Shown here: piece after piece, positions 18,750 through 36,911 of the stretch
Layout: every line of letters starts with the position of its first letter
How positions within the stretch are numbered: the first letter of the stretch is position 1
NCBI RefSeq assembly: GCF_035573695.1
Contig: NZ_CP121694.1
Location: forward strand, 2,704,501-2,768,500
Length of the DNA: 64,000 nt
Reading direction: 5' to 3'
Origin: Metallumcola ferriviriculae
Lineage (GTDB): Bacteria > Bacillota > JADQBR01
Translations under genes and position numbers: made by a program
Notes under the pieces: model-generated
Told to the model about the DNA's origin: nothing
Database searches by the model: none
Seen by the model: the letters and a program-made list of their open reading frames with translations, nothing else

Positions 18750-19958
18750 TTAAACCACTTCCACTGCTACGGCATCTCCTTGAGCCAGGCCGCCACAGAT
18801 AGCGGCTACTCCTTTACCACCACCCCGCCGGCGTAGTTCATAAACAAGGGTCATCAGAATTCTTGCGCCGCTTGCTCCCACGGGGTGGCCCATAGCTACT
18901 GCCCCGCCATTAACGTTAATTTTTTCTCGCAGCGCTTCTATTTTTGGCTTGTCACCGTTGGCTAAGATTGTGCTGGCGACTAGAGGCATTGCTGCAAAAG
19001 CTTCGTTTATCTCGATTAAATCTATATCATCTAATTCCCAAGTTGCATTGGTCAGGGCTTTACTGATCGCCGGAGCCGGTGATTCGGCCAATAACCTCGG
19101 TTTTAGGGCTATGCTGGCAATCGACCTAACTTTAGCTAATGGGGTAAATCCTAATTCTTGAGCCTTTTCTTCTGTCATCAATAGTATAGCTGAGGCTCCG
19201 GTGCTTAGTGCAGGGGCATTACCGGCGGTAACTGTGGGGCTGCCATAGACTGTCGGTAATTTGCTAAGCTTTTCCAAGCTGGTATCGGGCTTGGGTGACT
19301 CATCAGTTTCTAGTCTGAACGGTTCACCACGACGCTGTGGGACCGCTAACGGCATCAGTTCGTCCTCAAACTTGCCTTCGGCAGCCGCTTTGGCATAGCG
19401 CTGCTGGCTGTTATAAGCCCAAAGATCCTGGTCTTCTCTAGAGATGTCATGTTCTAATGCTACCTCCCCGGCATCTACCGCCACCGGGTTAAATTCCTTG
19501 TATCCCAATTCAAATAAAGGGTCAATTAAGGTCAAATCCCCTATACGCTGGCCCCAGCGGGCCTTTGTAGCTAAGAGTGGTGTACGGCTCATGTTCTCCG
19601 CCCCCGCAGCCAATACCACCTGGGATACCCCGGAAACTATGGCCTGATACGCCAACTGCACCGCTGTTATGGAGGAACAGCAGGCCCGGTCTATGGTTAA
19701 GGACAACGTCTCCGGTGGTAAGCCGGCCTTCAACATAGCCTGGCGGGCCGGTATATTGGTATGGATGCCGGTTTCCGCAGGGATACAGGTTCCGTAAAAA
19801 ACCTGATCCAGAACATTTCCGGGTAAATCAACCCTATTAAGAACTTCTTTTATTACCATAGCCCCCAGGTCTATGCTGGGGATGTCTTTAAGTAACCCGC
19901 CGAATTTACCAAAAGGAGTTCGTACGGCACTGACAATTACTACTTCCTTCTCTCCCAT
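18750..19958 (-). CDS. Acetyl-CoA acyltransferase / thiolase
   Basis: 402 aa from the ATG at 19956-19958, with AAAGGAG upstream. Thiolase signatures: SAVRTPFGKFGG at the start, active-site cysteine in DRACCSS near residue 88, and C-terminal NVNGGAVAMGHPVGASG and CGGLAQG with the catalytic His and Cys. It performs the last beta-oxidation step, thiolytic cleavage of a 3-oxoacyl-CoA. Last gene of the 18-kb co-directional set, 57 bases after the enoyl-CoA hydratase. Chain-length or omega-carboxyl preference cannot be read. Confidence 0.93.
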   Translation of the reverse strand: MGEKEVVIVSAVRTPFGKFGGLLKDIPSIDLGAMVIKEVLNRVDLPGNVLDQVFYGTCIPAETGIHTNIPARQAMLKAGLPPETLSLTIDRACCSSITAVQLAYQAIVSGVSQVVLAAGAENMSRTPLLATKARWGQRIGDLTLIDPLFELGYKEFNPVAVDAGEVALEHDISREDQDLWAYNSQQRYAKAAAEGKFEDELMPLAVPQRRGEPFRLETDESPKPDTSLEKLSKLPTVYGSPTVTAGNAPALSTGASAILLMTEEKAQELGFTPLAKVRSIASIALKPRLLAESPAPAISKALTNATWELDDIDLIEINEAFAAMPLVASTILANGDKPKIEALREKINVNGGAVAMGHPVGASGARILMTLVYELRRRGGGKGVAAICGGLAQGDAVAVEVV

Positions 19959-20015
19959 AACTTCTATTTCTCCTTTCAATCCTCTGATTAGAATAAGCTA
20001 ATTAATTGGGAATAA

Positions 20016-20801
20016 CTATCGATGCTTAAAGTTGGCCCCTCTTTTTTCCAAGAAAGCGTTAACACCTTCCTTTACGTCCTCGGTCTGGAAAACGTTATCA
20101 AATAGTTTAATTTCCAGAGTGAGGCCGTTGGCTATGCTTTGTTCAGTGCCCTGATCAACTGCCTGCTTTATTGCTTGAAGAGCTTTTCCGGCCTTAGTTG
20201 TTAACTTCTTAGCCAGTTCTACTGATTTGTTTAACGCCTCACCCTTAGATACTACCTTATTAACCAACCCTAACTTTAAAGCCTCCTGGGCTCCCAACGG
20301 TTCCCCGAAAAACATCATTTCCTTTGCTCGGCTGGAGCCGATAAGACGGGACAGACGCTGGGTACCTCCTCCCCCGGGAAACAACCCTAAGTTAATTTCC
20401 GGCAGTGCTATCTTTACGTCTTCTTCTGCCACCCTCAAATCACAACATAAGGTTAATTCGCAGCCCCCGCCATAAGCCAATCCATTCAATGCTGCTATAG
20501 TAGGTTGGGGTAAATCCGCTAAACGACTAAATACCCAGTGATTGTTGTTACTTAATTCCGCAGCTTCGCCAGGCGCATTAAGTTCTAAGAATTCTTTGAT
20601 ATCTGCACCGGCCATAAATGCCCGTTCCCCGGTACCAGTAACTACTACGGAAACAATAGTTTTATCTTTTTCAATTTCTTCCAGGCAGCTGTTTAAACAG
20701 GCCACAACCTCTTTATTGAGAACATTAAGCGGAGGATTATCTATAATAATAATGGCTACACCATCATCCACCGTTAAGTTAACAAGTTTTTTTTCGCCCA
20801 A
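20016..20801 (-). CDS. Enoyl-CoA hydratase (crotonase)
   Basis: 261 aa, TTG start at 20799-20801 with GAAAGGGG upstream. It has the crotonase oxyanion segments (AFMAGADIKEF, LNGLAYGGGCELTL) and, unlike the protein at 1159, both catalytic glutamates, in LPEINLG and AKEMMFFG. It hydrates a trans-2-enoyl-CoA to 3-hydroxyacyl-CoA. It sits between the acyl-CoA dehydrogenase and the thiolase, as expected for a beta-oxidation set. Confidence 0.93.
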   Translation of the reverse strand: MGEKKLVNLTVDDGVAIIIIDNPPLNVLNKEVVACLNSCLEEIEKDKTIVSVVVTGTGERAFMAGADIKEFLELNAPGEAAELSNNNHWVFSRLADLPQPTIAALNGLAYGGGCELTLCCDLRVAEEDVKIALPEINLGLFPGGGGTQRLSRLIGSSRAKEMMFFGEPLGAQEALKLGLVNKVVSKGEALNKSVELAKKLTTKAGKALQAIKQAVDQGTEQSIANGLTLEIKLFDNVFQTEDVKEGVNAFLEKRGANFKHR

Positions 20802-20906
20802 CTGAAACTACCCCTTTCAATATTACATTAGGCAATAACTAGTGCCGTGCCGCTTGGGCTTATTCTAGTAGTTTAAAGGCCAAACTAGTTTCACCCATGG
20901 GAAACC

Positions 20907-22040
20907 TCAAAACAACGTCTTAGCAATTACTAACCGCTGCACCTGGTTGGTCCCTTCATAGATCTGAGTTATCTTAGCGTCACGCATCATACGTTCCACT
21001 GGATACTCTTTGATATAGCCGTAGCCGCCAAGTACCTGCACCGCATCGGTGGTCACCTGCATAGCCACATCCGATGCACAGAGCTTAGCCATGGAAGAAA
21101 TACGGGTGATATCTTTACCCTCATCCAAATCGTAGGCTGCCTGATGTACCAGCAGGCGGGCTGCTTCCACCTGTGTAGCCATATCCGCCAGCATCACCTG
21201 TATGGTTTGAAAGGAGTTCAGCGTGTTACCAAATTGCACCCGTTCCCCAGCATATTTAACCGCAGCGTCCAGAGCACCTTGAGCAATCCCCAGGGCCTGG
21301 GCCCCTACACCGGTACGGGTGTGGTCTAAAGTCTGCATAAGAATCCTAAAGCCCATATTCTCTTCTCCCAGTAAATTTTCCTTAGGGACGCAGCAATTTT
21401 CAAAAATCACTTCCCGGGTCACTGAACCCCGGATACCCATCTTATCTTCTTTCTTGCCAAAAGTTAAGCCCGGAGTTCCTTTTTCCACTACGAAAAGACT
21501 GATACCACGGTGCCCCTTATCCTTGTCAGTCTTTGCCACTACAACGTAAATCTCGGATTCTCCGGCGTTGGTTATGAAGCACTTTTGCCCGTTAATAACA
21601 TAATTATCGCCGTCCCTTACTGCTAAGGTCTTTATGGAACCTGCATCTGAACCGGCACCGGGTTCAGTCAGGCAAAAAGACCCTAACACATCACCCCTGG
21701 CCATTGGTGTAACATATTTTTGCTTCTGTTCTTCGGTTCCTGCTATCATCAGCGGGGCCAATACCAAAGCCTGCGTAGTCAACACAACTGAAGTAGATGC
21801 GCACACCCGGGCAACTTCTTCAATTGCCAAAACATGAGACACTGTGTCACTACCGGCGCCACTGTATTTCTCTGGGATATTAATCCCTAGGAGACCGTGT
21901 TCGGCCATCAGTTTGATGTTATCCCAGGGAAATATCCCCAGTTGGTCAACTTCCCCTGCTTTTTCCGCGAATTCATTGTGCGCTAAGTCCCGAACCATGT
22001 TTTTAACCATTAGTTGTTCCTCACTATAATATACCGGCAC
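20907..22040 (-). CDS. Acyl-CoA dehydrogenase
   Basis: 377 aa, full length. GTG start at 22038-22040 with AAGGAGG upstream. The FAD-binding FCLTEPGAGSDAGS and the C-terminal QVLGGYGYIKEYPVERMMRDAKI signature are plain, the latter followed by the catalytic glutamate in IYEGTNQVQR. This resembles short-chain (butyryl-CoA type) dehydrogenases. It introduces the 2,3 double bond and needs an electron-transfer flavoprotein; no etfAB is in this window. Confidence 0.94.
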   Translation of the reverse strand: MPVYYSEEQLMVKNMVRDLAHNEFAEKAGEVDQLGIFPWDNIKLMAEHGLLGINIPEKYSGAGSDTVSHVLAIEEVARVCASTSVVLTTQALVLAPLMIAGTEEQKQKYVTPMARGDVLGSFCLTEPGAGSDAGSIKTLAVRDGDNYVINGQKCFITNAGESEIYVVVAKTDKDKGHRGISLFVVEKGTPGLTFGKKEDKMGIRGSVTREVIFENCCVPKENLLGEENMGFRILMQTLDHTRTGVGAQALGIAQGALDAAVKYAGERVQFGNTLNSFQTIQVMLADMATQVEAARLLVHQAAYDLDEGKDITRISSMAKLCASDVAMQVTTDAVQVLGGYGYIKEYPVERMMRDAKITQIYEGTNQVQRLVIAKTLF

Positions 22041-22110
22041 TTGATTTAACCTCCTTGACTGTTAGGTGGAATTTATACCCTTTAACAGCCGAAAGTGACA
22101 TGTTAGATTT

Positions 22111-22992
22111 TCAATCGATAATTTTCTTACCGTTTTCAGCGTACTTGTAAAAACCATAACCGACTTTCCGCCCCAACCTCCCGGCATCCACCATACGTTT
22201 AAGCAGCGGTGGTGGGCAAAATGCTTCATCGCCGATATCCTCATAAATGGCAGTCATGGCGTGAAGCAATACATCTATCCCAGTTAAATCCGCTAACTCC
22301 AGCGGTCCCATAGGCATCCCGAAACCTAATCGCATACCCTTGTCTATGTCTTCAGGCGTGCCTACTCCTTCCGTAAGGGCAACAATTGCCATCCTACTGT
22401 AAGGAAGGGCAATACGATTTAGCAGAAAACCGCCAAAGTCCCTTTTGGCAACCACTGTTTCTTTGCCCATACGCTTGCCTACTCTTTCAGCAACCTTCAC
22501 TGTTTCTTCTGAGGTATGCATTCCTTTTACTATCTCCAGGAGCTTCATCATGGGAACCGGACTAAAAAAGTGCATCCCGATGACTTTTTCCGGGCGCCCA
22601 GTCACCGATGCCAACTCGGTGATGGACAAGGCAGAAGTGTTTGAAGCGAAATATGTCTTCGTTGGGCATACTTTGTCTAGTTCCCGAAATATTTTCTGCT
22701 TTAATTCCATGTTTTCAAAAATCGCCTCTATCACCAACTGTGCCTGAGCACTGCGACCGAGGTCAGTAGTGACTTCAATCCTATTTAAGATTTCATCCCT
22801 CTCATCCAGGGTGAACCTTCCTTTTTTTACAAAGCGACCCAAGGAATACTTGATGCTATTCAGTCCCCTTTCCAGGGATGCTTCATCAACATCGTGCATA
22901 CATACTTTTATGCCGCTTTGAGCAGCTACTTGGGCAATACCACTTCCCATTAATCCTGCCCCTATTACGAGAATCCTATCAATACTCACCAT
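22111..22992 (-). CDS. 3-hydroxyacyl-CoA dehydrogenase (Hbd type)
   Basis: 293 aa, typical of monofunctional 3-hydroxybutyryl-CoA dehydrogenase. N-terminal NAD-binding [17 protein letters not shown]; catalytic histidine in IGMHFFSPVPMMKLLE with the following NRIALPY and GPLELADLTGIDV segments. It oxidises 3-hydroxyacyl-CoA to 3-oxoacyl-CoA. RBS GAGGAGG. Two other Hbd-type genes occur at 39160 and 62398, so the organism carries pathway-specific copies. Confidence 0.93.
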   Translation of the reverse strand: MVSIDRILVIGAGLMGSGIAQVAAQSGIKVCMHDVDEASLERGLNSIKYSLGRFVKKGRFTLDERDEILNRIEVTTDLGRSAQAQLVIEAIFENMELKQKIFRELDKVCPTKTYFASNTSALSITELASVTGRPEKVIGMHFFSPVPMMKLLEIVKGMHTSEETVKVAERVGKRMGKETVVAKRDFGGFLLNRIALPYSRMAIVALTEGVGTPEDIDKGMRLGFGMPMGPLELADLTGIDVLLHAMTAIYEDIGDEAFCPPPLLKRMVDAGRLGRKVGYGFYKYAENGKKIID

Positions 22993-23010
22993 ATTTCCTC
23001 CTCTAAGTAC

Positions 23011-24705
23011 TTACAGATAACCTACTGAATCCAGTTCGCCGTCAGAAACATCAAACACCAGGTTATTAGGTCCCAATTTTTCATATTTCATATATTCCGG
23101 CAGCCGGTCATCTTTGCAGCTTAGCCCTGCCAGTTGGTTGAATTTACGTTCGCTCTTCAGCACCGCTTCCCCAAATTCTAAAAATGATTCTATTGCTTCT
23201 TTACCGGCCTTTGTAGCCACAAGTTGTTCCACCTTTTCTAGCTGACTGTTGAACGCAGCGCCAACAAACACACACAAGCCGAGACTGTCGTAGGCAGCCA
23301 TCATTTTTTGTGAATTTGCCGACAAATCAACCTGACCTTCAGGACTATGGGGATTTTTTCCTCGAATACAGTTTCCGGAAGTATGATCCGCCCCCATCGG
23401 TGACGTGGCATAAGTAACACCATTTCCCTTCACCGCCCTGGGGTCATATGCCGGCATAGCCTGCCCTTTCACTGTCGGCACCCTGGTTATTCCCATTATT
23501 TTACCGACAATGGCGGCACCGCTACCGAACATTCTGCCTAATACTGTGCCTTTGCCAATCTCTCTTACCATCTGCTCCGCTGCTTTACTATCGCCAAATT
23601 CGGCCAGACCAGCCTGCATTGCTACCCCTAAAGCAGCACCAATTTCTATAGTGTCTAACCCATAATCATTACATAGGTAATTCATCCGAGCAATGGCATC
23701 CAAATCATCAATGACTAAATTAGAGCCCATTAGACCAATAGTTTCATATTCCAATGGCGCAACCAACACTTCGCCATTACTGTCCGGGTAAATCGATGAA
23801 CAACCGATAAGACAACCGGGCATACAACTATGGCTAGGCTTGCCTTTGCCGCCCCGGGCTATAATAGTATCGTACATAGCTTCACCACTAATCTTGTCTG
23901 CCCTGTCAAATTTGCCTTGGCTAAAGTTCTTGGTTGGCAGTCCTCCCAATTCCTGTACCAAATCAAGGATCGCTGGCGTACCATATTTTCTATAGGTTTT
24001 TACCACATTATTATCTTGTAAATTTTTATTTAGCTCACTTGCCAACCTTTTAAATTCACTCTCATTATCATAATTAACATTATCGACATTTCTATCATCA
24101 AGAATAATTGCTTTTAAACCTTTGGAACCCATCACCGCTCCCAGACCACCCCGTCCGCAGTAACGGGAAGGATTACCGTCTTTATCTGTATTGGTTATAC
24201 CCGCTGCAGCAAGAGACATTTCACCGGCGGGACCGATAGCAATAATACCAGCCTTGCCATGATATGTTTCTCTTAGCTTTTCCACCAGTTTATAAGTTCC
24301 CAGACTGGCACAATCCCCTGCTGGAACTAAATGTGCGCCAGTCTTTTCAATGACCAATAAGAACTTATCGTTTTCGGCCAAACCTTCCACAATAATTGCT
24401 TTGAAGCCCATTTTTGCCAGCTTTTGTGCAGTGTTACCTCCACCGTTACTCTCCTTTATGCCTCCGGTTAAGGGACTTTTTGCACCAATGGATATCCGTC
24501 CGGAACTGGATAGCGTGGTACCTCCCAATAAACCAGGCGCTATCACCAATTTATTAAATTCTCCCAAAGGTTCACAGTTTGGTATTACCTCATCCAGAAT
24601 TATCTGGGAAGTTAGCGCTCGACCTCCTAAATAACGATATTTTGCCGGTGCCTGCTTTTCACTGATGGTCAGGTCGGTCATGTTAACTCTTATAAACTTT
24701 TCCAC
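23011..24705 (-). CDS. Tungsten aldehyde ferredoxin oxidoreductase
   Basis: 564 aa from a GTG at 24703-24705 with GGGGTG six bases before; an upstream TTG at 24723 has no site. AOR family: the N-terminal domain that holds the bis-pyranopterin (YLGGRALTSQIIL, SGRISIGAKSPLTGG), a [4Fe-4S] cysteine set CMPGCLIGC with the fourth cysteine in SLGLCVF, and ETIGLMGSN. The enzyme oxidises an aldehyde to its acid and reduces ferredoxin. In this operon it would deal with an aldehyde formed from an alcohol or by the ThDP enzyme. Requires tungsten cofactor genes not seen here. Confidence 0.93.
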   Translation of the reverse strand: MEKFIRVNMTDLTISEKQAPAKYRYLGGRALTSQIILDEVIPNCEPLGEFNKLVIAPGLLGGTTLSSSGRISIGAKSPLTGGIKESNGGGNTAQKLAKMGFKAIIVEGLAENDKFLLVIEKTGAHLVPAGDCASLGTYKLVEKLRETYHGKAGIIAIGPAGEMSLAAAGITNTDKDGNPSRYCGRGGLGAVMGSKGLKAIILDDRNVDNVNYDNESEFKRLASELNKNLQDNNVVKTYRKYGTPAILDLVQELGGLPTKNFSQGKFDRADKISGEAMYDTIIARGGKGKPSHSCMPGCLIGCSSIYPDSNGEVLVAPLEYETIGLMGSNLVIDDLDAIARMNYLCNDYGLDTIEIGAALGVAMQAGLAEFGDSKAAEQMVREIGKGTVLGRMFGSGAAIVGKIMGITRVPTVKGQAMPAYDPRAVKGNGVTYATSPMGADHTSGNCIRGKNPHSPEGQVDLSANSQKMMAAYDSLGLCVFVGAAFNSQLEKVEQLVATKAGKEAIESFLEFGEAVLKSERKFNQLAGLSCKDDRLPEYMKYEKLGPNNLVFDVSDGELDSVGYL

Positions 24706-24816
24706 ATAATTCACCCCTAACAATATTTACAGGTGTACGCATGCATGGAGAAAGCGAATACCTCAACCAACGCTTCCTGCCAATGTTACAACCCTGTATA
24801 TCTTCTATCACCAATG

Positions 24817-25848
24817 TTACGGGACCAAAACTGCTTTGACGATTTTCTTCTCCAGTGCAGCGTTAAAACCATCCAAAGCTTTTTGCAGTGGATATTTAGT
24901 TATAAGTGGATTGACCTCCAGTCGGCCGGAGGCTATTAAATTCATTGCCTGCCGATAATTTACCCATTTGGAGGAGTAACTGGTACGGATGATAATTTCT
25001 TTCCGTACCACCGGGGTAATAAATATTTGGGAAGGACCCGGATAAAGACCTATAATAGTTAAAGCCCCGCCTTTACGCGGAATTGCCAGACAATCCTCCA
25101 GCGCCAAAGCATTACCGGAACATTCAATTACAACATCTGCTTCATTACGCCCGGTTAACCTGAAGAGACCATCAATCAAAGTCTCATTGGCCACATTGAT
25201 GGTTTCAAATCCCATCTGCCGGGCCAATGTCAATCTCACCTTTTCGTCCGCTGATGTACCGGAGATCACCACCATGCCTGCTCCCATTATCCTGGCCGCT
25301 TGGGCAGCTAATATGCCGATTACCCCGGGCCCGGACACCAAGACCACATCCCCGGGACTGATATTACTATTATCCACTACTCCGTGCAACGCCACTGACG
25401 CAGGTTCCACTATGGCACCCTGAATTAAGTCCAGTCCCGGTTCCAGCGGGTGTACGTACCTAACATCTGCCGCCACATACTGGGCCATTCCCCCGTTTTT
25501 GTGTAAGCCCAATACCTGAAAGTTTTCGCACGTATTTGTCCTGCCCAGATGGCATTGAGGGCAGCTACCGCAATAATGAGTAGCTTCCACAAGCACTTGC
25601 TGCCCCTGTTGCCATTCCGTTGCTCCCGGTCCGACCTCAACAATGGTACCACTAAACTCGTGTCCCAAGGTTACAGGTACTTTAATAAATTCATATCCCG
25701 GGTCGTAATTATAGGCATGCAGATCACTGCCGCATACGGCACAAGCACCAACCTTAATCAGTAGCTGTCCGGGCTGCAAATCTGGCTGCGGAACATCTGC
25801 TACCTGCATTTCCCCCGGCGCCCTTGCTATTTTCCTAACGGCTTTCAT
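24817..25848 (-). CDS. Zinc-dependent alcohol dehydrogenase (MDR, sorbitol/threonine type)
   Basis: 343 aa. Catalytic zinc ligands are a Cys in ACAVCGSDLHA and His-Glu in LGHEFSG. The structural zinc loop has four cysteines (YCGSCPQCHLGRTNTC). The NAD site is SGPGVIGILAAQ. The sorbitol/threonine/2,3-butanediol dehydrogenase branch fits best; it would oxidise a secondary alcohol, often a vicinal diol or hydroxy-ketone. RBS precedes the ATG. Lies between a short-chain dehydrogenase and the AOR in the 18-kb set. Confidence 0.9.
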   Translation of the reverse strand: MKAVRKIARAPGEMQVADVPQPDLQPGQLLIKVGACAVCGSDLHAYNYDPGYEFIKVPVTLGHEFSGTIVEVGPGATEWQQGQQVLVEATHYCGSCPQCHLGRTNTCENFQVLGLHKNGGMAQYVAADVRYVHPLEPGLDLIQGAIVEPASVALHGVVDNSNISPGDVVLVSGPGVIGILAAQAARIMGAGMVVISGTSADEKVRLTLARQMGFETINVANETLIDGLFRLTGRNEADVVIECSGNALALEDCLAIPRKGGALTIIGLYPGPSQIFITPVVRKEIIIRTSYSSKWVNYRQAMNLIASGRLEVNPLITKYPLQKALDGFNAALEKKIVKAVLVP

Positions 25849-25885
25849 AACAATCCTCCTTACAATAACGTCTTCATCGCACCGC

Positions 25886-26644
25886 TTAGTTCATAAACAT
25901 ACCGCCGTTAATATCCAAAGTAATTCCGGTCATATATTCGGCGGCAGGGGAAACCAAAAAGGTCACTGCCTGGGCAATATGATGCGGCTCGCCAAATGTG
26001 CCCAAAGGTATTTGATTTCTAAACTTCTGGTTCACTTCAAATGACACCATTTTGACCATTTCGGTGTTGATTCTTCCAGGTGCAATGGCGTTAACCTTAA
26101 TATCGTGCTCCGCCAGTTCGCCGGCCAGCGCCCGGGTAAACCCGATGATTGCTGCCTTGGTAGTAATGTAATGACAAGCAGTCAAGGCAGTATAAAGACG
26201 GCCGGAAACCGAAGAGATATTAACAATATGTCCGCCACCCTGATGTTGCATTGCCCTGGCAGCAGCCTGGGAACAGTTAAACATGCCGTTGAGGTTTACA
26301 TCTAACACCCGTGCCCACTCATCCTTTGGCATATCTATAAAGGGGATTTTCTGGCCGTCCCTTTTTGGGGATATACCTGCATTATTTACCAAGATATCAA
26401 GGCGACCAAAGCGATTGATGGTTTCACTGACCATATTCTCTACTTTCTCCTGATCCGCAACATCAACTGCCGATACCATCACTTTTCTACCCTTTTTCTT
26501 TAAGCCAGCAGCGGTGCTTTCTAACAAGTTACTGTCTATATCGTTAAGGCAAACTGCCGCACCGGCATCACTGAGCGCCTCAGCGATAGCCTTACCCAAT
26601 CCTCTAGCTGCGCCAGTAACTAACGCCACCTTTTTAGTTAACAT
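25886..26644 (-). CDS. Short-chain dehydrogenase/reductase (SDR)
   Basis: 252 aa from the ATG at 26642-26644; its ribosome site GGGAGGAGGG overlaps a spurious upstream start. Classical SDR: TGAARGLGKA cofactor motif, NNAGIS, catalytic Ser-Tyr-Lys in NISSVSG and YITTKAA, and C-terminal TGITLDINGG. The tyrosine is in HYITTK, normal YxxxK. Likely a 3-oxoacyl- or secondary alcohol dehydrogenase. Follows the ABC ATPase gene by 17 bases. Confidence 0.9.
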   Translation of the reverse strand: MLTKKVALVTGAARGLGKAIAEALSDAGAAVCLNDIDSNLLESTAAGLKKKGRKVMVSAVDVADQEKVENMVSETINRFGRLDILVNNAGISPKRDGQKIPFIDMPKDEWARVLDVNLNGMFNCSQAAARAMQHQGGGHIVNISSVSGRLYTALTACHYITTKAAIIGFTRALAGELAEHDIKVNAIAPGRINTEMVKMVSFEVNQKFRNQIPLGTFGEPHHIAQAVTFLVSPAAEYMTGITLDINGGMFMN

Positions 26645-26661
26645 ATTTAGCCCTCCTCCCA

Positions 26662-27366
26662 TTACATACCTAAGTATGCCGTTTTCAGCCTTTCATCAGT
26701 AATTAGTTCGTCAGCTTTGCCGGATAAAGCTATTCTGCCGTTTTCTAAAACATAAGCGGATTGTGAAATGCGCAGGGATTGGTGAATATTTTGCTCAACC
26801 AGAAGAATAGTGGTACCCTGCTGATTTATCTGCTTAACTATTTCGAAAGTCTGCTTTACCAACATCGGTGCAAGCCCTAAGGATAGTTCATCCATCATCA
26901 AAATCCTGGGCTTTGCCATCAAGCCCCTGCCAATTGCACACATCTGCTGCTGCCCACCACTTAACGAAGCGGCCATGTCGTTTTTCTTTGCCTTTAAATC
27001 CGGTAGCAGCTCAAACACCAGTTCCAGGCTTTCTTTTCTTGCCTTACGGGCTTGGGATGTATACGCTCCTAATTCCAAATTTTCCAATACGGTCATGTGG
27101 GAGAACAACCGGCGGCCTTCAGGCACCTGAACAATGCCCAATTTTACAATCTCGTAGGCGGGCATCTCATGCAAGGGCTTCCCCTCAAAGGTAATTGAAC
27201 CAGATAAAGGTTTACTAATACCGGAAATGGTATTGATGGTGCTAGTCTTACCGGCAGCGTTGGCCCCTACGAGGGCCACTATTTCCCCCTGTTTGATTTC
27301 CATAGAAACATCCCACAATACTTGAACATCACCATAAGCTACGTTAACGCTTTCTAGTTTAAGCAA
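26662..27366 (-). CDS. livF: Branched-chain-type ABC transporter ATPase (LivF)
   Basis: 234 aa from a TTG at 27364-27366 that follows GGGGGAGGAA; the upstream residues of the open frame have no ribosome site. Walker A GANAAGKT, signature LSGGQQQMCAIGRGLM, Walker B ILMMDEL. The VPEGRRLF segment is diagnostic of LivF. It couples ATP hydrolysis to uptake through LivH/LivM. Its start overlaps the LivG stop by 8 bases. This ABC family carries branched amino acids but also aromatic and alicyclic acids, amides and urea. Confidence 0.93.
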   Translation of the reverse strand: MLKLESVNVAYGDVQVLWDVSMEIKQGEIVALVGANAAGKTSTINTISGISKPLSGSITFEGKPLHEMPAYEIVKLGIVQVPEGRRLFSHMTVLENLELGAYTSQARKARKESLELVFELLPDLKAKKNDMAASLSGGQQQMCAIGRGLMAKPRILMMDELSLGLAPMLVKQTFEIVKQINQQGTTILLVEQNIHQSLRISQSAYVLENGRIALSGKADELITDERLKTAYLGM

Positions 27367-28084: not shown

Positions 28085-28088
28085 CTCC

Positions 28089-29129
28089 TCACCCCCTTGT
28101 TTGTTGTTTTTTTACCGCTAATTTACCATGTCTATTCTGCAAATCTTGCCCTGGCTTCCTGCGTGTAATCAACTTCTTTACCGATGTATAAATACCGTCG
28201 GGCATCAAGGTTACCACGGTAATTAAAATCAAGCCGTACAGTACGAAATTTAAGCCGTTATAATCTCCACCTAGCCAACTGCGCAAAAATTCATTCAACG
28301 GTGTCAGTAAAAAAGACCCGATAATTGGCCCCCAAGCGCTGCCAATACCGCCCACCACAGGAATCAGTGCCAATTGGACGGATAAGTTCATGTTAAATAC
28401 ACCTTCTGGTTCAATAAAGAGAATATATTGTGCCATAAATACACCGCAAAGCGCTGTAAGAAATGCTGATAAGGATGCTGCCAGCAGTTTATACCTAGTA
28501 GTCCGCACCCCTAAAGCCTCAGCGGCATCTTCATCTTCCTTCAATGCCTCCAGGTAATAGCCAAATTTGGAGTTTTCAATCCATAAGGATATTGTAAGTA
28601 CTATCAACATTAACACCAGTGCCATGTAATAGTAGGGTTCTTTACCACGGAATATAAGGTTAGCCAGGCCCGGTTTGAATGGAATAAGTAGGCCCACCGA
28701 TCCAGCAGTCAAATCCCGCCAAAATATTGATACTAGTCGCATTACTTCCGCAAAGGCTAGTGTCGCCAGGGCGAAAAAGGGTCCTCTTAGCCGGAAACAA
28801 GGGTAACTTATAGCAATGGCAACTATTACGGAAAGCAATCCGGCCGCCAACATCCCTAGCCAAGGTGTAAGGGAAAAATGTAAGTATAGTAGTGTAGATG
28901 TATAGGCACCTAAACCGTAAAAAGCGGCGTGGCCCAATGAAAGTTGCCCACCGTAACCGCCGATGATGTTCCAGGCGCCACTGGCAGCAGCGTAAAAGAA
29001 TACCAATATCATTACATGTAGATAAAACTTGTTCTTCATTGCCAAAGGAAGCAGCAATAATAACACTGCCATTATGAACGCGACCAGCATTCCCTTGCGG
29101 GATCCAGTATTTATTAATCGTAATATCAC
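28089..29129 (-). CDS. livM: Branched-chain-type ABC transporter permease (LivM)
   Basis: 346 aa, eight to ten membrane helices. Contains GGYGGQLSLGHAAFYGLGAY and GGIGSAWGPIIGSFLL, the LivM permease signatures, with the cytoplasmic loop EDEDAAEALGV that contacts the ATPase. The start overlaps the LivH stop by four bases (ATGA), so the two permeases are translationally coupled. The C-terminal tail is long and basic. Confidence 0.92.
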   Translation of the reverse strand: MILRLINTGSRKGMLVAFIMAVLLLLLPLAMKNKFYLHVMILVFFYAAASGAWNIIGGYGGQLSLGHAAFYGLGAYTSTLLYLHFSLTPWLGMLAAGLLSVIVAIAISYPCFRLRGPFFALATLAFAEVMRLVSIFWRDLTAGSVGLLIPFKPGLANLIFRGKEPYYYMALVLMLIVLTISLWIENSKFGYYLEALKEDEDAAEALGVRTTRYKLLAASLSAFLTALCGVFMAQYILFIEPEGVFNMNLSVQLALIPVVGGIGSAWGPIIGSFLLTPLNEFLRSWLGGDYNGLNFVLYGLILITVVTLMPDGIYTSVKKLITRRKPGQDLQNRHGKLAVKKQQTRG

Positions 29130-30016
29130 CTCATACCCACCTCCTCTGATCCTCTACCTAAACCAAAGAGCCCGGTTGGCTTTAACACCAAAATCAGGAT
29201 AAATATTATAAAATATACTGCTTCTTTTAAGGCGGGGTCAAGATAAAAACCGGCAAAAGCTTCTACAAGACCAATTATCAATCCGCCAATAAAGGCACCC
29301 AATACGCTGCCCATTCCACCAAGGATTACGACAACAAAAGCTGTCAATATAAAAAGGGAACCTACGGTAGGAAAAACATAGTAAATTGGCATCAATAAAG
29401 CACCTGCAATACCGACAAAGGCAGTACCTAAACCAAATGCCAGTAAATAAATATTGTAAACGTTAATACCCATCAGCATTGCTGCTCCCCGATCCAAGGC
29501 TACAGCACGTATAGCTTTACCCATGTAAGTACGTTTAAAGAAAAAAAATAGAGCAATGTTTATGCCCGTGGCAACAATGAATGCCACCAACCGCGGATAA
29601 CTAATTACCAGTGTTCCCAAATTTATCACCGAAGTTTGATAGGATGTCTGCACTGTTCTATAGTCCGCTTTCCAAAACATCAAGGCCAAGTTCTGCAGGA
29701 CGATGGACAATCCTAACGTAGAAAATATTTTAACGGTTGCCGGAGCATTTAATATTGGTTGAATGAATACCCGCTGAACAAGGACACCTATTAAAAATAA
29801 CAGCGGGGTCACTATAAAAACAGCCACATAGGGGTCTAACTGAAACAGGTTAAACATCCAAAAGGTGGCGTACATAGCCAGCATCAAAAATTCCCCGTGT
29901 GCAAAGTTAACAATCCGCACCACTCCGAAAATCATGGTGAGCCCAATGCTAATTAACGCATAAATTCCGCCTAATAGCAGGCCGGAAATTATTACTTGCA
30001 TAAAATTTATCGCCAT
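29126..30016 (-). CDS. livH: Branched-chain-type ABC transporter permease (LivH)
   Basis: 296 aa, about eight membrane helices. Begins with SGLLLGGIYALISIGLTMIFG and has IVNFAHGEFLMLAMY, both LivH hallmarks, and the ATPase-contact segment RAVALDRGAAMLMGINV. RBS AAAGGAG before the ATG. Forms the channel with LivM. Confidence 0.92.
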   Translation of the reverse strand: MAINFMQVIISGLLLGGIYALISIGLTMIFGVVRIVNFAHGEFLMLAMYATFWMFNLFQLDPYVAVFIVTPLLFLIGVLVQRVFIQPILNAPATVKIFSTLGLSIVLQNLALMFWKADYRTVQTSYQTSVINLGTLVISYPRLVAFIVATGINIALFFFFKRTYMGKAIRAVALDRGAAMLMGINVYNIYLLAFGLGTAFVGIAGALLMPIYYVFPTVGSLFILTAFVVVILGGMGSVLGAFIGGLIIGLVEAFAGFYLDPALKEAVYFIIFILILVLKPTGLFGLGRGSEEVGMR

Positions 30017-30109
30017 TTATGTCACTCCTTTGCGCATTGCTTCATGCCAAACCGAGATGAATTCTTAAATAGGGGGAAACCGGATGGTTCCCCCCCTGTA
30101 AAATACTAG

Positions 30110-31417
30110 TTATTCCTTAGCACGTTCCTGCCAGGTTGGCATGGGGAATGTAAGTTCTTTTACAGCAGCACCTTCGGGCCAAACGGTGACCAAGCCATCC
30201 TCAGTCCACTGCAGCACAAAGGGTTCACCCAGCTCATTCTGACCGGTTTCAGGATTGAATTTCACGCCCCAGCCAGTGGGAGTAGTACCCAACTCTTTTT
30301 CATAGGCCAAAGCTTCTTTGCGAATAGCATCGGGATCCATAGAACCGGCTTTTTCTAATACATCAAACAGTACCATGGCACCCATGTAATTGGCAACGGA
30401 GTGTCCGGAACGTGGTTCCTCTCCGTAAGTCTTCTTGTATAGTTCAATAAATTCGTCCATGCCCGGGGTAAAGTCCCTGTTAACGGCATATTGAGTAAAG
30501 TCTACGTTGAAAATACCATTAACGTCGCTTCCCAAGGCATCCTGGAAGTCCTTCATAGTATGGCCTCCACCTGTACCAATAAAGGCTTTAGGACTGAAAT
30601 CATACTCTTTAGCCTGACGCCAGAATAAGATGGCATCTGTAATGTAGGAAATGGCCAAAACAACGTCGGGGTCATATTTTTTCAAACCCATAATTACCGA
30701 AGACAAGTCAACAGCTTTAGAATTATAAGGCTGAACCAATCCCACCGACAATCCGCCTTCTTTAGCATACTCCTCAATATACCCGGCTACAGTGCTGCCG
30801 TAGAGAGAATCCTCGTGTGCAATAGCGATTTTTAGATCGCCGGGGTTAACACCCAGCTTAGGAGCCACAACCTCATTGATAAATTTCACTTCAACCTTAG
30901 CAAAAGTAGCAGCAGTAGGATTTGTTCTGAACAAATACTGGAAGCCCCGTTCGGTGATAGGGTCAGAAATAGCACCTAACTCCCAGTAAGATACACCATT
31001 ACGCTCGGCAACTTCAGATGCTGCGAAGGACAAGGAACTAGAGAAGGAGCCCAATATTAACTCCATTCCTTCCTTAGTAATTAAGCGATCTGCTTCCGCC
31101 TGAGCTGCATTAGCATCGGGAGCATCGGCCTTAACAAAATCAATGGGTCGACCCCACAAACCGCCCTGCTCGTTTCTTACCAGACGTGCCAGTTCGGCAC
31201 CCCGGAAACTTTCTTCACCTAATAAGGCCATGGAACCGCTCATAGGATAAAGCGTACCGATTTTTACCGGCTCTTTGGGCTGTTCCTTCTCAGCGGTATC
31301 TTTACTTTGATCTTTACTAGGAGCAGGTGCCGTATCACTTCCGCCGCCACCACAGCCTGTCAAAACAATACTAAACACCATTATTAGCACTAGCAGCCAG
31401 GAAACTTTTTTTAACAT
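30110..31417 (-). CDS. ABC transporter substrate-binding lipoprotein (LivJ/periplasmic type 1)
   Basis: 435 aa from the ATG at 31415-31417 (AAGGAGG upstream; an earlier ATG at 31444 lies before that site). Lipoprotein signal: LVLIMVFSIVLTGCGGGG. The mature part is a type 1 periplasmic binding fold (IGTLYPMSGSMALLGEESFRGAE, followed by a GRPIDFVKADAPD segment). Proteins of this subtype bind amino acids, amides or aromatic/aliphatic acids. It delivers the substrate to LivHMGF, whose genes follow directly. Confidence 0.92.
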   Translation of the reverse strand: MLKKVSWLLVLIMVFSIVLTGCGGGGSDTAPAPSKDQSKDTAEKEQPKEPVKIGTLYPMSGSMALLGEESFRGAELARLVRNEQGGLWGRPIDFVKADAPDANAAQAEADRLITKEGMELILGSFSSSLSFAASEVAERNGVSYWELGAISDPITERGFQYLFRTNPTAATFAKVEVKFINEVVAPKLGVNPGDLKIAIAHEDSLYGSTVAGYIEEYAKEGGLSVGLVQPYNSKAVDLSSVIMGLKKYDPDVVLAISYITDAILFWRQAKEYDFSPKAFIGTGGGHTMKDFQDALGSDVNGIFNVDFTQYAVNRDFTPGMDEFIELYKKTYGEEPRSGHSVANYMGAMVLFDVLEKAGSMDPDAIRKEALAYEKELGTTPTGWGVKFNPETGQNELGEPFVLQWTEDGLVTVWPEGAAVKELTFPMPTWQERAKE

Positions 31418-31510
31418 CTTTTTTAGAACCTCCTTGTTTTGCATTTTCTTATTGAAGCAACATCTTACTAAGTGATTTTTGCCCGTTTAACCCCCTCCTT
31501 TTGAAATCCT

Positions 31511-32275
31511 TTAACCGGCCAGCCAACCTCCATCAACATATATTGTCTGGCCAGTGATGTAGTCTCCGGCTTGAGAGGCCAAGAGTATCACCGCTCCCGC
31601 TAAATCTTGGGGTAAACCGGTACGGTTTTGCGGTATGCGGTCAAGCAATCCCTGTAATTTGTCAGGGTTATTAAATAACGGCGCTGTCATTTGGGTTCGG
31701 TAGTAACCCGGGCCCACAGCATTCACATTGATTTTGAATGGTGCCCATTCCACAGCCATTGCTTTTGTCATCTGACTGATACCGCCTTTGCTGATTCCAT
31801 ACATACTCATGTTAGGAAACCCCAATTCACTGGTAAGGGACGCCGTGTTGATGATCTTTCCCTTGCCTTGTTCAATCATTACTTTGGCCGCCGCCTGGCA
31901 GCAGAAAAACGGTCCTTTTAGGTTCACTGCCATCAATTGCTCCCAGTCCGATTCGTTAACTTCTGTCACCGGTTTACGAATATTCATGCCCGATGCGTTA
32001 ACCAAGATGTCGAGCTGACCGTAATGATTTACTACCTTATCCACCATTTCTTGTATTGTCCTTAACGACTGCATCTCCACGGTAACCGGCAAAGCTCTGA
32101 TGCCAAATTTTTCTAGTTCCTCCGCCGTACTTTCCAACTGATCCCACGTGCGAGCTGCTATGGCTACATCCGCTCCGGCCTGGGCCAATGCTTCAGCCAT
32201 ACCTTTGCCTAAACCCCGGCCTCCGCCCACTACCAAAGCAACTTTTTCATCTAACCTTAGTCTGTCTATAACCAT
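31511..32275 (-). CDS. Short-chain dehydrogenase/reductase (SDR)
   Basis: 254 aa, classical SDR: GGGRGLGKGMAE cofactor loop, NASGMNIRKP (Asn of the NNAG position kept as NASG), catalytic Ser in NTASLTS and Tyr-Lys in YGISKGG, C-terminal GQTIYVDGGWLAG. The MNIRKP pattern and the YVDGGWLA end are shared with the SDR at 56030, so the two are paralogues (gluconate 5-dehydrogenase-like). RBS GAGGGAGG. In the 18-kb set between the Fe-alcohol dehydrogenase and the ABC importer. Confidence 0.9.
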   Translation of the reverse strand: MVIDRLRLDEKVALVVGGGRGLGKGMAEALAQAGADVAIAARTWDQLESTAEELEKFGIRALPVTVEMQSLRTIQEMVDKVVNHYGQLDILVNASGMNIRKPVTEVNESDWEQLMAVNLKGPFFCCQAAAKVMIEQGKGKIINTASLTSELGFPNMSMYGISKGGISQMTKAMAVEWAPFKINVNAVGPGYYRTQMTAPLFNNPDKLQGLLDRIPQNRTGLPQDLAGAVILLASQAGDYITGQTIYVDGGWLAG

Positions 32276-32305
32276 TAAATCCCTCCCTCACGCTGCTGTT
32301 TAAGT

Positions 32306-33457
32306 CTAATACGCCCTCTTGAAAATATTGATCACATCATCCAATTTTGTCTCACGCGGGTTAACTTGAATGTTTCCGCTCTTCATGGCATCCTGGGCCA
32401 TGGGCTCAAATGCATCCTCCGTAACTGCCACTTCAGACAATGCGTTGGGTATGCCCACATCGGCAATCAACCTTTTAACGCCAATCACCGCCCGGTAGGC
32501 AGCATCCATTTGTGTCAAGTTGGCCATGGGTTCACCCATGGCTTCAGCAATTTTTAGAAACTTCTCCGGGCTTCCGAAAAGATTAAATTCCATCACATGG
32601 GGGATGAGAATGGAATTGGCAATGCCATGAGGAATATCGAAGAAACCACCTAACGGGTGACTCATGGCATGACCATTACCTAACCTAGTGTTATTAAACG
32701 CCATACCGGCCAGCAGCGAACCCATTAGCATTTTATCCCTGGCTTCCAGATTATTGCCATTATAAACTGCCTGACGGAGGTTACCACTTATCAGCTTTAT
32801 GGCCTCCAGCGCCAGGGCCTCTGAAATCGGATAAGCCATTAATGATGTGTAGGATTCTATAGCATGTACCAATGCGTCCATTCCTGTAGATGCTGTCAAC
32901 TGCCGCGGCATGGAAACAGTGAGCAGCGGATCCAATAATGCTACCTTGCAGGCGCAGTTGGGGCTGGCCACAGTGAGCTTGTATTTCCGGGTACGGTCAG
33001 TAATAACGGCAAAAATAGTAACTTCACTGCCAGTACCCGCAGTGGTTGGAATGGCCACAATGGGTAAGGCAGGTTTACTAACCTTGTTTGCCCCTTCGTA
33101 GTCCAACAAATTTCCGCCATTAGTAGCCAAAATGCCAATTCCTTTGGCTACGTCAATGGGGCTTCCCCCACCCACGGCTACAATTACCTCTGCACCAAAA
33201 TCTTTTTGTTTGGCCAAGCCTTTATTTACAGTTTCCAAAGATGGGTTAGGCTCAACGTCACTGAAAATCTGAATAGCAATACCCTTTTCTTCCAACGGTT
33301 TTTTTACTTTTTCCAATAAGCCTGCATTCACTACACCAGCATCGGTAACAATTAAGACTTTTGCTGACCCGAGACCTGAGCAAATATCCCCCAGTTCGAC
33401 GATGCTGCCCTGGCCATAGATAATCTCAGTAGGGTTTTTAAAAAAAGATATCGTCAT
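32306..33457 (-). CDS. Iron-containing alcohol dehydrogenase
   Basis: 383 aa from the ATG at 33455-33457 (GGGGG ribosome site). NAD motif VGGGSPIDVAKG, PTTAGTGSEVT, and the metal-binding DALVHAIESY, GNGHAMSHPLGG, PHGIANSILIPHVMEFN segments with the expected histidines. It interconverts a primary alcohol or hydroxy acid with its aldehyde or keto form. Between the SDR and the ThDP enzyme. Confidence 0.93.
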   Translation of the reverse strand: MTISFFKNPTEIIYGQGSIVELGDICSGLGSAKVLIVTDAGVVNAGLLEKVKKPLEEKGIAIQIFSDVEPNPSLETVNKGLAKQKDFGAEVIVAVGGGSPIDVAKGIGILATNGGNLLDYEGANKVSKPALPIVAIPTTAGTGSEVTIFAVITDRTRKYKLTVASPNCACKVALLDPLLTVSMPRQLTASTGMDALVHAIESYTSLMAYPISEALALEAIKLISGNLRQAVYNGNNLEARDKMLMGSLLAGMAFNNTRLGNGHAMSHPLGGFFDIPHGIANSILIPHVMEFNLFGSPEKFLKIAEAMGEPMANLTQMDAAYRAVIGVKRLIADVGIPNALSEVAVTEDAFEPMAQDAMKSGNIQVNPRETKLDDVINIFKRAY

Positions 33458-33482
33458 AATTGAGGCCCCCTTCAAAAAAATT

Positions 33483-35198
33483 TTATAAGTATGCCACCTT
33501 GTTCTTTTTAGCCAGCGCTTCCTTAAAGCTTAGAACTGGAGTCTCCCATACGGCGGTCCGAACGTTTATCACCGAAGAGCGGTCGCTATCCAGTGCAGCC
33601 TGAAACGCCTCTTTAAATTGGTGCGGTTTTTCCACGGAAAAGCCTAGGCAGTCAAAACCTTCCGCGACCCTAGCATAATCTACAAAAGGTAGGTCAAAAT
33701 GTTCCTTGTCGAAGTTCAATTTACTAACCCACTCTATCCAGCCCCAGTCACTGTTATTCAGCACCACATTGATTATTTTCAAACCAAATTTCTTTAAGGT
33801 TGCCAGCTCGGAAACCGTATAGGCAAATGCTCCGTCCCCGCTGAGACAAACGATGTTTCCTTTAGGTTGGGCCATGCGAGCGCCGATGGCGGCGGGTAAA
33901 CCAAACCCTAACCCAGCTAATCCCCTGGGGAAAAGCACCTTACGTCCGGCCTGCTTAACACGATAGTAAACTGCGCCCCAACCGCTGGTAAAACTGGCAT
34001 CGCAGACTAAGATATCTTCAGATCCCATCATTTCCGATAGCTCCTGAACGATTCTCTGAGGCTTAATAGGAATATCGGCGGTCAAATCGTCTCTCATTTC
34101 CTTCTCCCACTGCTTTTTGGTAGCGGCTACCTCATTTAGATACTTTTCCTTGGTCTGTGGTTTTCCATCTGTACGCTCATTTAGCGCCCGCAGCAACTGC
34201 CCCAGACCCACTTTAGCATCGGCGGCAATGCCGGCCTCAGTTTTAAATACTTTTCCTATTTCTGAGGCATCAATATCCAAGTGTATTACTTTCTGCTTCG
34301 GTGTTGGCAGTGTCCAAGAGAATGTGGAATTTTGACCAGATTTAAAGCCTACCAGCAGCACTACATCCGCCTGCTGGGTTAGTTGATAGGTGTAATTAAT
34401 GCCAATGCCGCCCAACATACCAATAGACAAGGAATGATTTTCAGAAATGACCCCCTTACCGGTAAAAGTAGTTGCAATCGGCATGCTCAAATATTCTGCC
34501 AGCTTCTCCACTTCCTCATAAGCGCCTGATATCAAGGCACCGCCACCGGCTATAAGCACTGGCCGTTTGGCCGTAAGTAGCAAATCAGTGGCGGCCTCGA
34601 TCTCATCCGCCGCGGATAAAGGCCTGTACGCAGGGTAAGAATTTTTTGATATTGTTGGGTCGGTCTCAAACTCGCTCAAGTCACACTCTGCGGAGAAAAC
34701 ATCCTCAGGGACAGCCAGCACCACAGGTCCCGGCCTGCCGGTCAGAGCCTTCTGCCAGGCACTTTGCACCAGTTCCGGAAGTATTTTAGGTGAAGTAGCC
34801 TTGGCCTGCCATTTGCTCACCGGTCGTAACATTTCCAACTGATACATGCCTTGGGACGCCGTGCCGTAATCTACTTTGTTTACCCAATCTAAAGGAAGGT
34901 CACTAATCAAGGCCAACAAAGGGGTAGATGAGTTGTATGCCTCACCAAGCGCGGTAGGCAGTTGGGTCACCCCCGGTCCCACAGTGGCATCGCAAACTCC
35001 CAATTCTCCAGTCACACGGGAATAAGCGCAAGCTGCATAACCTGCATTTCGCTCTTCCCGCATAGTTATATGCTTTAAATCAGGGTAGGCATCCTTTACC
35101 GCATCATACAGCGGTAAAGTCTGTCCTCCGGGTACTCCAAAAATGTATTTGACGCCTCGCTTTTTCAGTAAGTCAACAATTAAATGTCCTGTGTGCAT
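33483..35198 (-). CDS. ThDP-dependent enzyme of the acetolactate synthase / benzaldehyde lyase superfamily
   Basis: 571 aa. Three domains: Pyr (about 1-165, with the activating glutamate in ITMREERNAGYAA), central Rossmann-like (about 190-330) and PP (about 375-530, ThDP/Mg motif GDGAFAYTVSE ending NVVLNNSDWG). It resembles acetolactate synthase large subunits, but no regulatory subunit gene is near and the surrounding genes are catabolic. I infer that it breaks (or makes) a C-C bond next to a carbonyl, for instance in an acyloin or 1,2-diketone. RBS AAAGGAG. Second gene of the operon. Confidence 0.88.
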   Translation of the reverse strand: MHTGHLIVDLLKKRGVKYIFGVPGGQTLPLYDAVKDAYPDLKHITMREERNAGYAACAYSRVTGELGVCDATVGPGVTQLPTALGEAYNSSTPLLALISDLPLDWVNKVDYGTASQGMYQLEMLRPVSKWQAKATSPKILPELVQSAWQKALTGRPGPVVLAVPEDVFSAECDLSEFETDPTISKNSYPAYRPLSAADEIEAATDLLLTAKRPVLIAGGGALISGAYEEVEKLAEYLSMPIATTFTGKGVISENHSLSIGMLGGIGINYTYQLTQQADVVLLVGFKSGQNSTFSWTLPTPKQKVIHLDIDASEIGKVFKTEAGIAADAKVGLGQLLRALNERTDGKPQTKEKYLNEVAATKKQWEKEMRDDLTADIPIKPQRIVQELSEMMGSEDILVCDASFTSGWGAVYYRVKQAGRKVLFPRGLAGLGFGLPAAIGARMAQPKGNIVCLSGDGAFAYTVSELATLKKFGLKIINVVLNNSDWGWIEWVSKLNFDKEHFDLPFVDYARVAEGFDCLGFSVEKPHQFKEAFQAALDSDRSSVINVRTAVWETPVLSFKEALAKKNKVAYL

Positions 35199-35258
35199 AA
35201 AATACTCCTTTCTTTTGCTTTAATAATGAAATTTAAATGGACTAATTCATTTAAACTC

Positions 35259-36797
35259 TTAAACCGAATTTGAATGGGAATTAGAAGACTTGCCCTGTTT
35301 CCTTAGCTCCCGTTTTAGAATTTTACCCGTGCTGGTCTTAGGAAGTTCTGTAACAAACTCAAAGAATTGTGGCACTTTATACGATGAGAGCTGCTCCCGG
35401 CAGTAGCCGCGGATATCGTCTGCGCTAGACTTTATTGAATCTTTTAGTACGATTACCGCTTTAGGCACCTCTCCCATGTCTGAATGGGGCACACCTATGA
35501 CGGCAGCCTCAAGAACTTTGGGATGGGAATACAATACTTCCTCTACTTCTCGAGGGTAAATATTGAGGCCGCCCCGGATGATCATGTCTTTCTTGCGATC
35601 AACGATATAATAATATCCGTCTTCATCTACATAACCCATGTCGCCAGTATGAAGCCACCCATCTTTCAACGACTGTTTTGTTTCATCGGGCTTCTGGTAA
35701 TAACCCTGCATGACATTAGGGCCGTGGCAGGTAATCTCACCCACGGTGCCGGTGGGAACTTCATTATCATCGCTATCCACAATCTTAATATCAACCCCGG
35801 GAAACGCCTGGCCCACCGAACCAAGTTTTTTAGCACCTCTAAAGGGATTGGTAGCAACCACCGGGCTAGCTTCAGAAAGACCATACCCTTCTACTATTTC
35901 AAAACCAAAAACCTCCTTAAAACGGTTGAACACCCCTTCAGGAAGGGAAGCGGCCCCGGTAAAGGCAACTCTTAGAGCGCTGACATCATATTTGGGCAGT
36001 TCAGGGTGATTAAGAATAAATGCATACATGGTCGGCGGACCGAAGAAGAAGGTAATCTTTTTATCCTGGAATGCCTGTAAAGTATCCTCGGCACTTATCC
36101 ACCTATCTTTTAAAACCAAAGTTCCACCGCTTACCAAAGTTGCATTCATTACACATGTCTGGGCAGCAGAATGATAAATAGGTGCTAACACTAGTGATCT
36201 TTCATCCGCGCTAAACTCCAATATCCTAGCAAACTCCACCGCGTTAGAATAAAGGTTAGTGTGACTAAGCATGGCGCCTTTGGGTATACCGGTTGTCCCC
36301 GATGTATAAAGAAATTCGATAACGTCATCGTCTTTAACTTGGTTTTGCCCGCTGCCTAACACTGGTTTCAACAGTTGTTCCCAGTTTAGTATTCCTTCTA
36401 TATTCGCACTGTCTGTGATAAAGATATTTTCAATGGAGTTAACCTGCTGTTGAATTGCCTCAATCATCGTGACATTATCCGCAGTAGTTATTAACACCTT
36501 GGGCTGGCAATCTTCAATAATGACCTGTACTTCACGCTGCCGGTAGCGTGGGTTAACCGGTACGATCACTGCTTGAGCCAGAATAATACCAAAATAAGCA
36601 ATAACAAACTCCGGCGTATTATCCAGCATCAGCACTACCCTATCTCCCTTGGTAACGCCAAATCCCTCTAGCCGACGACCGACGGTACGCGCCATATTTA
36701 AAAACTCTCGATAGCTTATTTTCCTCCCTTCAAACTCCAAAGCATTTTTGTTTGGGGTTTTTTCGGCAACCCTCTCCCAGGAACTAATAAAATTCAT
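35259..36797 (-). CDS. Acyl-CoA synthetase (AMP-forming)
   Basis: 512 aa from the ATG at 36795-36797 with AAAGGAG eight bases upstream. ANL superfamily: phosphate loop YTSGTTGIPKGA, YGLSEASPV, LHTGDMGYVDEDGY, and the C-terminal catalytic lysine in PKTSTGKILKREL. It activates a carboxylic acid to its CoA thioester. First gene behind the sigma-54 promoter at 36897, so it probably acts on the pathway's free acid (for example that made by the AOR). Confidence 0.93.
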   Translation of the reverse strand: MNFISSWERVAEKTPNKNALEFEGRKISYREFLNMARTVGRRLEGFGVTKGDRVVLMLDNTPEFVIAYFGIILAQAVIVPVNPRYRQREVQVIIEDCQPKVLITTADNVTMIEAIQQQVNSIENIFITDSANIEGILNWEQLLKPVLGSGQNQVKDDDVIEFLYTSGTTGIPKGAMLSHTNLYSNAVEFARILEFSADERSLVLAPIYHSAAQTCVMNATLVSGGTLVLKDRWISAEDTLQAFQDKKITFFFGPPTMYAFILNHPELPKYDVSALRVAFTGAASLPEGVFNRFKEVFGFEIVEGYGLSEASPVVATNPFRGAKKLGSVGQAFPGVDIKIVDSDDNEVPTGTVGEITCHGPNVMQGYYQKPDETKQSLKDGWLHTGDMGYVDEDGYYYIVDRKKDMIIRGGLNIYPREVEEVLYSHPKVLEAAVIGVPHSDMGEVPKAVIVLKDSIKSSADDIRGYCREQLSSYKVPQFFEFVTELPKTSTGKILKRELRKQGKSSNSHSNSV

Positions 36798-36896
36798 TAA
36801 CAAAACTCCTTTCATTAAATTCCGTTACCCTGCGGAAGCAGAGTTTGAAATTTTTAAATATTAATAATATAGTAAATTTTCTGATATTTAATAATG

Positions 36897-36911
36897 CAAG
36901 TAATGTGCCAA
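36897..36911 (-). promoter_or_regulatory. Sigma-54 promoter at the head of the 18-kb operon
   Basis: The minus strand reads TGGCACATTACTTGC (GG and GC 12 apart), about 100 bases before the acyl-CoA synthetase start. Activator gene 37146 lies upstream on the same strand. Confidence 0.87.

Follow-up and report, generated by a model that had tools for sequence, protein, structure and literature searches.

A sigma-54 associated operon in Metallumcola ferriviriculae with a conserved core around an uncharacterised AHAS-like ThDP enzyme

We have analysed an operon whose central part, consisting of a ThDP-dependent enzyme, a Liv-type importer and several dehydrogenases, is kept in two distant bacteria and therefore probably encodes a real degradation pathway. 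The ThDP enzyme belongs to an uncharacterised AHAS-like branch and is neither an AHAS nor a cyclohexane-1,2-dione hydrolase (CDH). Our tentative reading, held with a little less than even confidence, is that the operon provides an inducible catabolic route of import, oxidation by dehydrogenases, ThDP-dependent C-C cleavage to an aldehyde and oxidation of the aldehyde by an AOR. Judged from the gene families, the imported substrate is most likely a polyol, hydroxyketone or hydroxy acid; a diol or acyloin is possible.

Methods

The window, meaning the whole stretch of 64,000 nucleotides that was analysed (NZ_CP121694.1, positions 2,704,501 to 2,768,500), belongs to the single contig that makes up the 3.72-Mb genome. 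Families were checked by Pfam and NCBIfam for the genes that were scanned, and the LivHMGF assignments come from the sequences and from their relatives (45-65% identity). The CDH reference sequence was identical to PDB 2pgn over 588 residues. Contigs were searched with a two-sequence ThDP alignment, which yielded two loci, one in Paradesulfitobacterium ferrireducens and one in a distant Bacillota MAG; the contig search with a single ThDP protein as query gave no match. No additional carriers of the module turned up in the 73 genomes of the class to which the MAG belongs, or in two other classes of 46 and 3 genomes. Literature searches for such an operon, or for the physiology of P. ferrireducens, found nothing on point.

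Operon structure and promoter

Sixteen minus-strand ORFs span positions 18750-36815 of the window, with gaps between genes of -38 to 105 bp. The genes named in the first-pass annotation were all recovered in place and on the same strand, and their families agreed with Pfam/NCBIfam where scanned. In order of transcription, the operon and its flanking features are:

37146-39050, minus: sigma-54 activator (CBS, PAS, AAA, HTH), directly upstream of the operon and its likely regulator
36895-36910, minus: sigma-54 promoter TGGCACATTACTTGCA, a consensus match ~80 bp upstream of the ligase start
35259-36815, minus: acyl-CoA ligase (PF00501); none in the relatives' stretches that were read
33483-35198, minus: ThDP-dependent C-C enzyme of an AHAS-like branch (Pfam, tree, alignment), with Glu49 and with Trp487 at standard position 476
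32306-33475, minus: iron alcohol dehydrogenase (Fe-ADH), near the 1,3-propanediol and lactaldehyde types by family match; 60% identical to that of P. ferrireducens
31511-32275, minus: SDR 1, near the KduD and gluconate 5-dehydrogenase types (family match, relatives)
30110-31444, minus: lipoprotein-type solute-binding protein of the HAAT/Liv type (PF13458)
29126-30016, minus: LivH permease (sequence and relatives)
28089-29129, minus: LivM permease (sequence and relatives)
27359-28084, minus: LivG ATPase (sequence and relatives)
26662-27396, minus: LivF ATPase (sequence and relatives)
25886-26662, minus: SDR 2, FabG-like; 44% identical to that of P. ferrireducens, none seen in the MAG stretch
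24817-25848, minus: zinc alcohol dehydrogenase (Zn-ADH) of the threonine/polyol dehydrogenase group (family match, relatives)
23011-24723, minus: AFOR-family (tungsten-type) aldehyde oxidoreductase (AOR) with C300, C304, C308 and C484; 63% identical to that of P. ferrireducens
22111-22992, minus: 3-hydroxyacyl-CoA dehydrogenase (family match)
20907-22040, minus: acyl-CoA dehydrogenase (family match)
20016-20801, minus: enoyl-CoA hydratase (family match)
18750-19979, minus: thiolase (family match)
16969-18372, minus: second sigma-54 activator (two CBS), directly downstream of the operon

The sigma-54 promoter proposed in the first-pass annotation is borne out by the consensus site upstream of the ligase. 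Exact sites number four in the window against 0.19 expected, and the motif occurs 27 times in the whole genome, compared with zero for a reversed-pattern control. Scans for sigma-70 promoters and terminators remained at background level, with terminator-like sites no commoner than in shuffles. We infer that the operon is transcribed as one unit, and the site together with the neighbouring activators suggests that a sigma-54 activator would switch it on. The upstream activator was rejected as a clear orthologue of the P. ferrireducens activator (45% identity), to which the window regulator at 52250-54379 is closer (51%).

The ThDP enzyme

The enzyme carries the N, M and C domains of the ThDP superfamily (PF02776, PF00205 and PF02775), the GDG...NN motif and the residues E49, D455 and N482; because these three residues are kept, the cofactor machinery looks intact. 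In the tree, the ThDP enzymes of the three module genomes form a clade (99/97) apart from AHAS, with the catalytic Glu kept in all three, and the sister group (98/99) is made up of ThDP genes from Phyllobacterium and Pleomorphomonas plasmids. No characterised member of the operon's branch was found. The best NCBIfam model is PRK06112, at 390 bits against a cut-off of 673, and TIGR00118 gives 371 bits against 538.

With AHAS (IlvB) the enzyme shares the three-domain ThDP fold, the catalytic Glu, the GDG motif and 28-32% identity, but it has S115 for the Phe of AHAS, L430 for Met and W487 for Leu/Met, and it lies on a separate branch. By our own mapping to yeast PDC, Trp487 occupies standard position 476, where the usual residue is Met (42%) or Ile (18%) (PMC3534367); the bulky Trp may shrink the acceptor pocket. 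A plain acetolactate synthase, which the first-pass annotation had named as the outcome that would undo its proposal, was rejected, as the enzyme falls in its own clade outside that of AHAS, scores below the AHAS cut-offs and coexists with a separate ilv operon elsewhere in the genome (ilvD-ilvB-ilvN-leuA at C1:30.5-38.5 kb, with a second AHAS-like large subunit). Within the operon, neither an ilvN regulatory subunit nor other ilv genes were found beside the ThDP gene. Glyoxylate carboligase was likewise rejected, the enzyme having Glu49 as opposed to Val51 in E. coli Gcl.

The same annotation had likened the enzyme to CDH of Azoarcus, a comparison that did not hold. The two share the ThDP decarboxylase superfamily fold (2pgn; VIA Z 32.1, rmsd 6.5, 528 aligned), a match tied with dozens of family members, and C-C cleavage next to a carbonyl, which for the operon enzyme is proposed. 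They are only 23% identical, however, and do not group in the tree, although CDH is a long branch there. The CDH residues H28, H31, H76 and N484 are absent and are replaced in the module clade by G25/A/E, L28, V73 and I488/M, respectively. Around its active site, the operon enzyme is modelled with low confidence (mean pLDDT 67), and for this reason the structural ranking was left out of the function call.

Among other relatives, PRK06112 proteins and rhizobial plasmid homologues (the latter 34-38% identical) have in common with the operon enzyme a D-x-S in place of D-x-G, whereas the operon enzyme is below the model cut-off and the operon contents differ. The Phyllobacterium and Pleomorphomonas genes, as the closest sister group, share Q26-T27 and the Trp at position 476, but their loci combine a kinase, a glycerol-3-phosphate dehydrogenase and a sugar-type ABC system in place of a Liv importer and dehydrogenases. 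On these plasmids (L026, 8394-20020; L031, 17-1798, with L039, 4159-15025), the sister gene lies beside a GntR-type regulator, a GlpD-like oxidase, an FGGY kinase and a glycerol-type ABC importer, a set that is possibly an unrecognised polyol pathway.

Conservation of the core

The module was seen in three genomes, namely this genome, P. ferrireducens and the MAG. The core common to the relatives comprises the ThDP enzyme, SDR, binding protein, LivHMGF, Zn-ADH and Fe-ADH, plus either an AOR or an aldehyde dehydrogenase, in largely conserved order. This recurrence gives the pathway idea support beyond the mere closeness of the genes. In a phylum sample of 398 genomes, ThDP matches of at least 48% identity occurred in this genome and the MAG only, and the binding protein was found at a comparable level in these two and in G279, where the context is different. 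The gene set is rare, being present in 1 of the 397 other same-phylum genomes sampled and in one named isolate.

P. ferrireducens has the order sigma-54 activator, AOR, two small MoaD/ThiS-like ORFs, ThDP enzyme, Fe-ADH, SDR, binding protein, LivHMGF, Zn-ADH, nitroreductase and SDR2. Identities to the operon proteins range over 39-65% (AOR 63%, ThDP enzyme 50%, Fe-ADH 60%, SDR 51%, binding protein 58-59%, LivHMGF 53-65%, Zn-ADH 39%, SDR2 44%). When its AOR was compared with the eight AORs of this genome, the operon AOR was the best match at 63%, followed by one at 52%. An activator and a sigma-54-like site, TGGAACGATTATTGC, lie upstream of the P. ferrireducens AOR; an exact consensus was absent there, and the site alone is weak evidence because its loose pattern is common by chance. 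The two MoaD/ThiS-like ORFs (L032, 9363-9608 and 9614-9856), which lie between the AOR and the ThDP gene, were called by eye, NCBIfam giving no match for the first of them, and no such ORF was noticed in the window operon.

The MAG has the order Fe-ADH, aldehyde dehydrogenase, ThDP enzyme, SDR, binding protein, LivHMGF, Zn-ADH, an epimerase-like gene and an L-2-hydroxyglutarate-oxidase homologue (identities: ThDP enzyme 48%, SDR 47%, binding protein 52-55%, LivHMGF 45-55%, Zn-ADH 38%). Its Fe-ADH is just 29% identical to that of the operon and may be a different enzyme. The aldehyde dehydrogenase directly precedes the ThDP gene, and no AOR was seen in the MAG stretch. Since an aldehyde oxidation step is thus kept while the type of enzyme changes, an aldehyde intermediate is suggested.

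Of the pathway set put forward in the first-pass annotation, the dehydrogenases, the ThDP enzyme and aldehyde oxidation stand as the conserved module, whereas a place in it for the ligase and beta-oxidation genes is not supported. None of the latter was seen in the ~10 kb read on each side of the core in P. ferrireducens and the MAG, and they may therefore be a later, lineage-specific addition. In this organism they plausibly complete the pathway, and would carry the acid to acetyl-CoA.

Importer and aldehyde oxidoreductase

In alignment, the PEG motif of the E. coli leucine-binding protein, which we take to contain the acidic (Glu) residue holding the alpha-amino group, is replaced by (T/S)GG in all three module binding proteins, which may speak against an alpha-amino acid ligand. 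The importer would take up a small oxygenated compound, probably other than an alpha-amino acid. Among solved structures, the binding protein matches 8wch best (Z 40.0, rmsd 2.9, 366 aligned), a SAR11 protein with which L-pyroglutamate co-purified. In another same-phylum genome (L045, 1465-6284), LivHMGF and a related binding protein (46%) have neighbours that by eye resemble an M20 peptidase gene and the gene of a urease-like amidohydrolase; given these neighbours, the importer type probably serves other substrates too.

The operon AOR scores above cut-off for both AFOR_N and AFOR_C, and its domain matches and cluster cysteines (C-x3-C-x3-C at 300-308, and Cys484) assign it to the AFOR family, as a predicted tungsten-type enzyme. 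Pyrococcus AOR has a C-x2-C spacing, which differs from the C-x3-C of the operon enzyme.

Proposed pathway and alternatives

Going by their families, the Fe-, Zn- and SDR dehydrogenases would oxidise hydroxyl groups of the imported compound to a ketone or hydroxyketone. The ThDP enzyme would then split the C-C bond beside that carbonyl and release an aldehyde, which the AOR would oxidise to the acid with ferredoxin as acceptor, a role that in the MAG would fall to the other aldehyde dehydrogenase.

A pathway built on 2-oxo acid decarboxylation is nearly as good a fit, and acyloin or diketone cleavage is not separable from such decarboxylation by sequence. In this possible alternative, to which we give about a third of our confidence, an imported hydroxy or oxo acid would be converted to a 2-oxo acid and then to an aldehyde, followed by the AOR, activation and beta-oxidation. 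AHAS-like enzymes include 2-oxo acid decarboxylases (the operon enzyme scores 296 bits with PRK07524, against a cut-off of 500), and the binding protein's relatives include, besides the pyroglutamate-holding protein, 4obb, complexed with a 2-oxo acid. The L-2-hydroxyglutarate oxidase homologue in the MAG run, which scores above cut-off, better fits a hydroxy acid and counts against cleavage beside a ketone. On the other hand, oxidation of a single hydroxy acid needs fewer than the three or four polyol or secondary-alcohol dehydrogenases present, and beyond the module the closest ThDP relatives sit in polyol-kinase/glycerol-type ABC operons.

Chance may instead have brought two modules together, one for uptake and C-C cleavage and the other an unrelated fatty-acid module, with a promoter but not a pathway in common. 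The outer genes were indeed not found beside the core in either relative's stretch, and surrounding CoA-metabolism genes also have sigma-54 sites; yet the single strand, the small gaps and the background level of terminator-like sites make this unlikely. Ehrlich-like catabolism of branched-chain or other amino acids would account for the Liv-type importer, ligase, acyl-CoA dehydrogenase and thiolase. It is rather less probable still, as neither an aminotransferase nor a 2-oxoacid dehydrogenase was found among the operon's genes, the presumed Glu motif is altered in all three binding proteins and the polyol-type dehydrogenases are left unaccounted for. A route for cyclohexane-1,2-diol like that of Azoarcus, in which a CDH-like enzyme opens a cyclic diketone to an acid for beta-oxidation, resembles the operon on paper in its order of chemical steps and in the presence of ligase and beta-oxidation genes, but is very improbable given the divergence from CDH described above and the relatives' stretches, where neither the ligase nor beta-oxidation genes were seen.

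A bolder version, possible but less likely than not, is an undescribed anaerobic pathway in which a new functional class of ThDP lyase cleaves an imported polyol, hydroxyketone or hydroxy acid and a dedicated tungsten enzyme oxidises the resulting aldehyde, with C-C cleavage coupled to reduced ferredoxin. Were the cleavage step true, anaerobes would gain another way to reduced ferredoxin from polyol-like compounds, and biocatalysis a new C-C lyase. P. ferrireducens is a cultured relative in which the substrate can be sought.

Neighbouring sigma-54 sites

Three more consensus sigma-54 sites occur in the window (5155, 40141 and 52098), near other transport or CoA-metabolism genes and each with an activator close by, so that the region resembles a succession of operons under sigma-54 control. 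Ahead of its CBS and PAS domains, the activator at 37146-39050 begins with a segment (residues 12-40) that resembles what is left of a thiolase C-terminus (Thiolase_C, E 0.0006).
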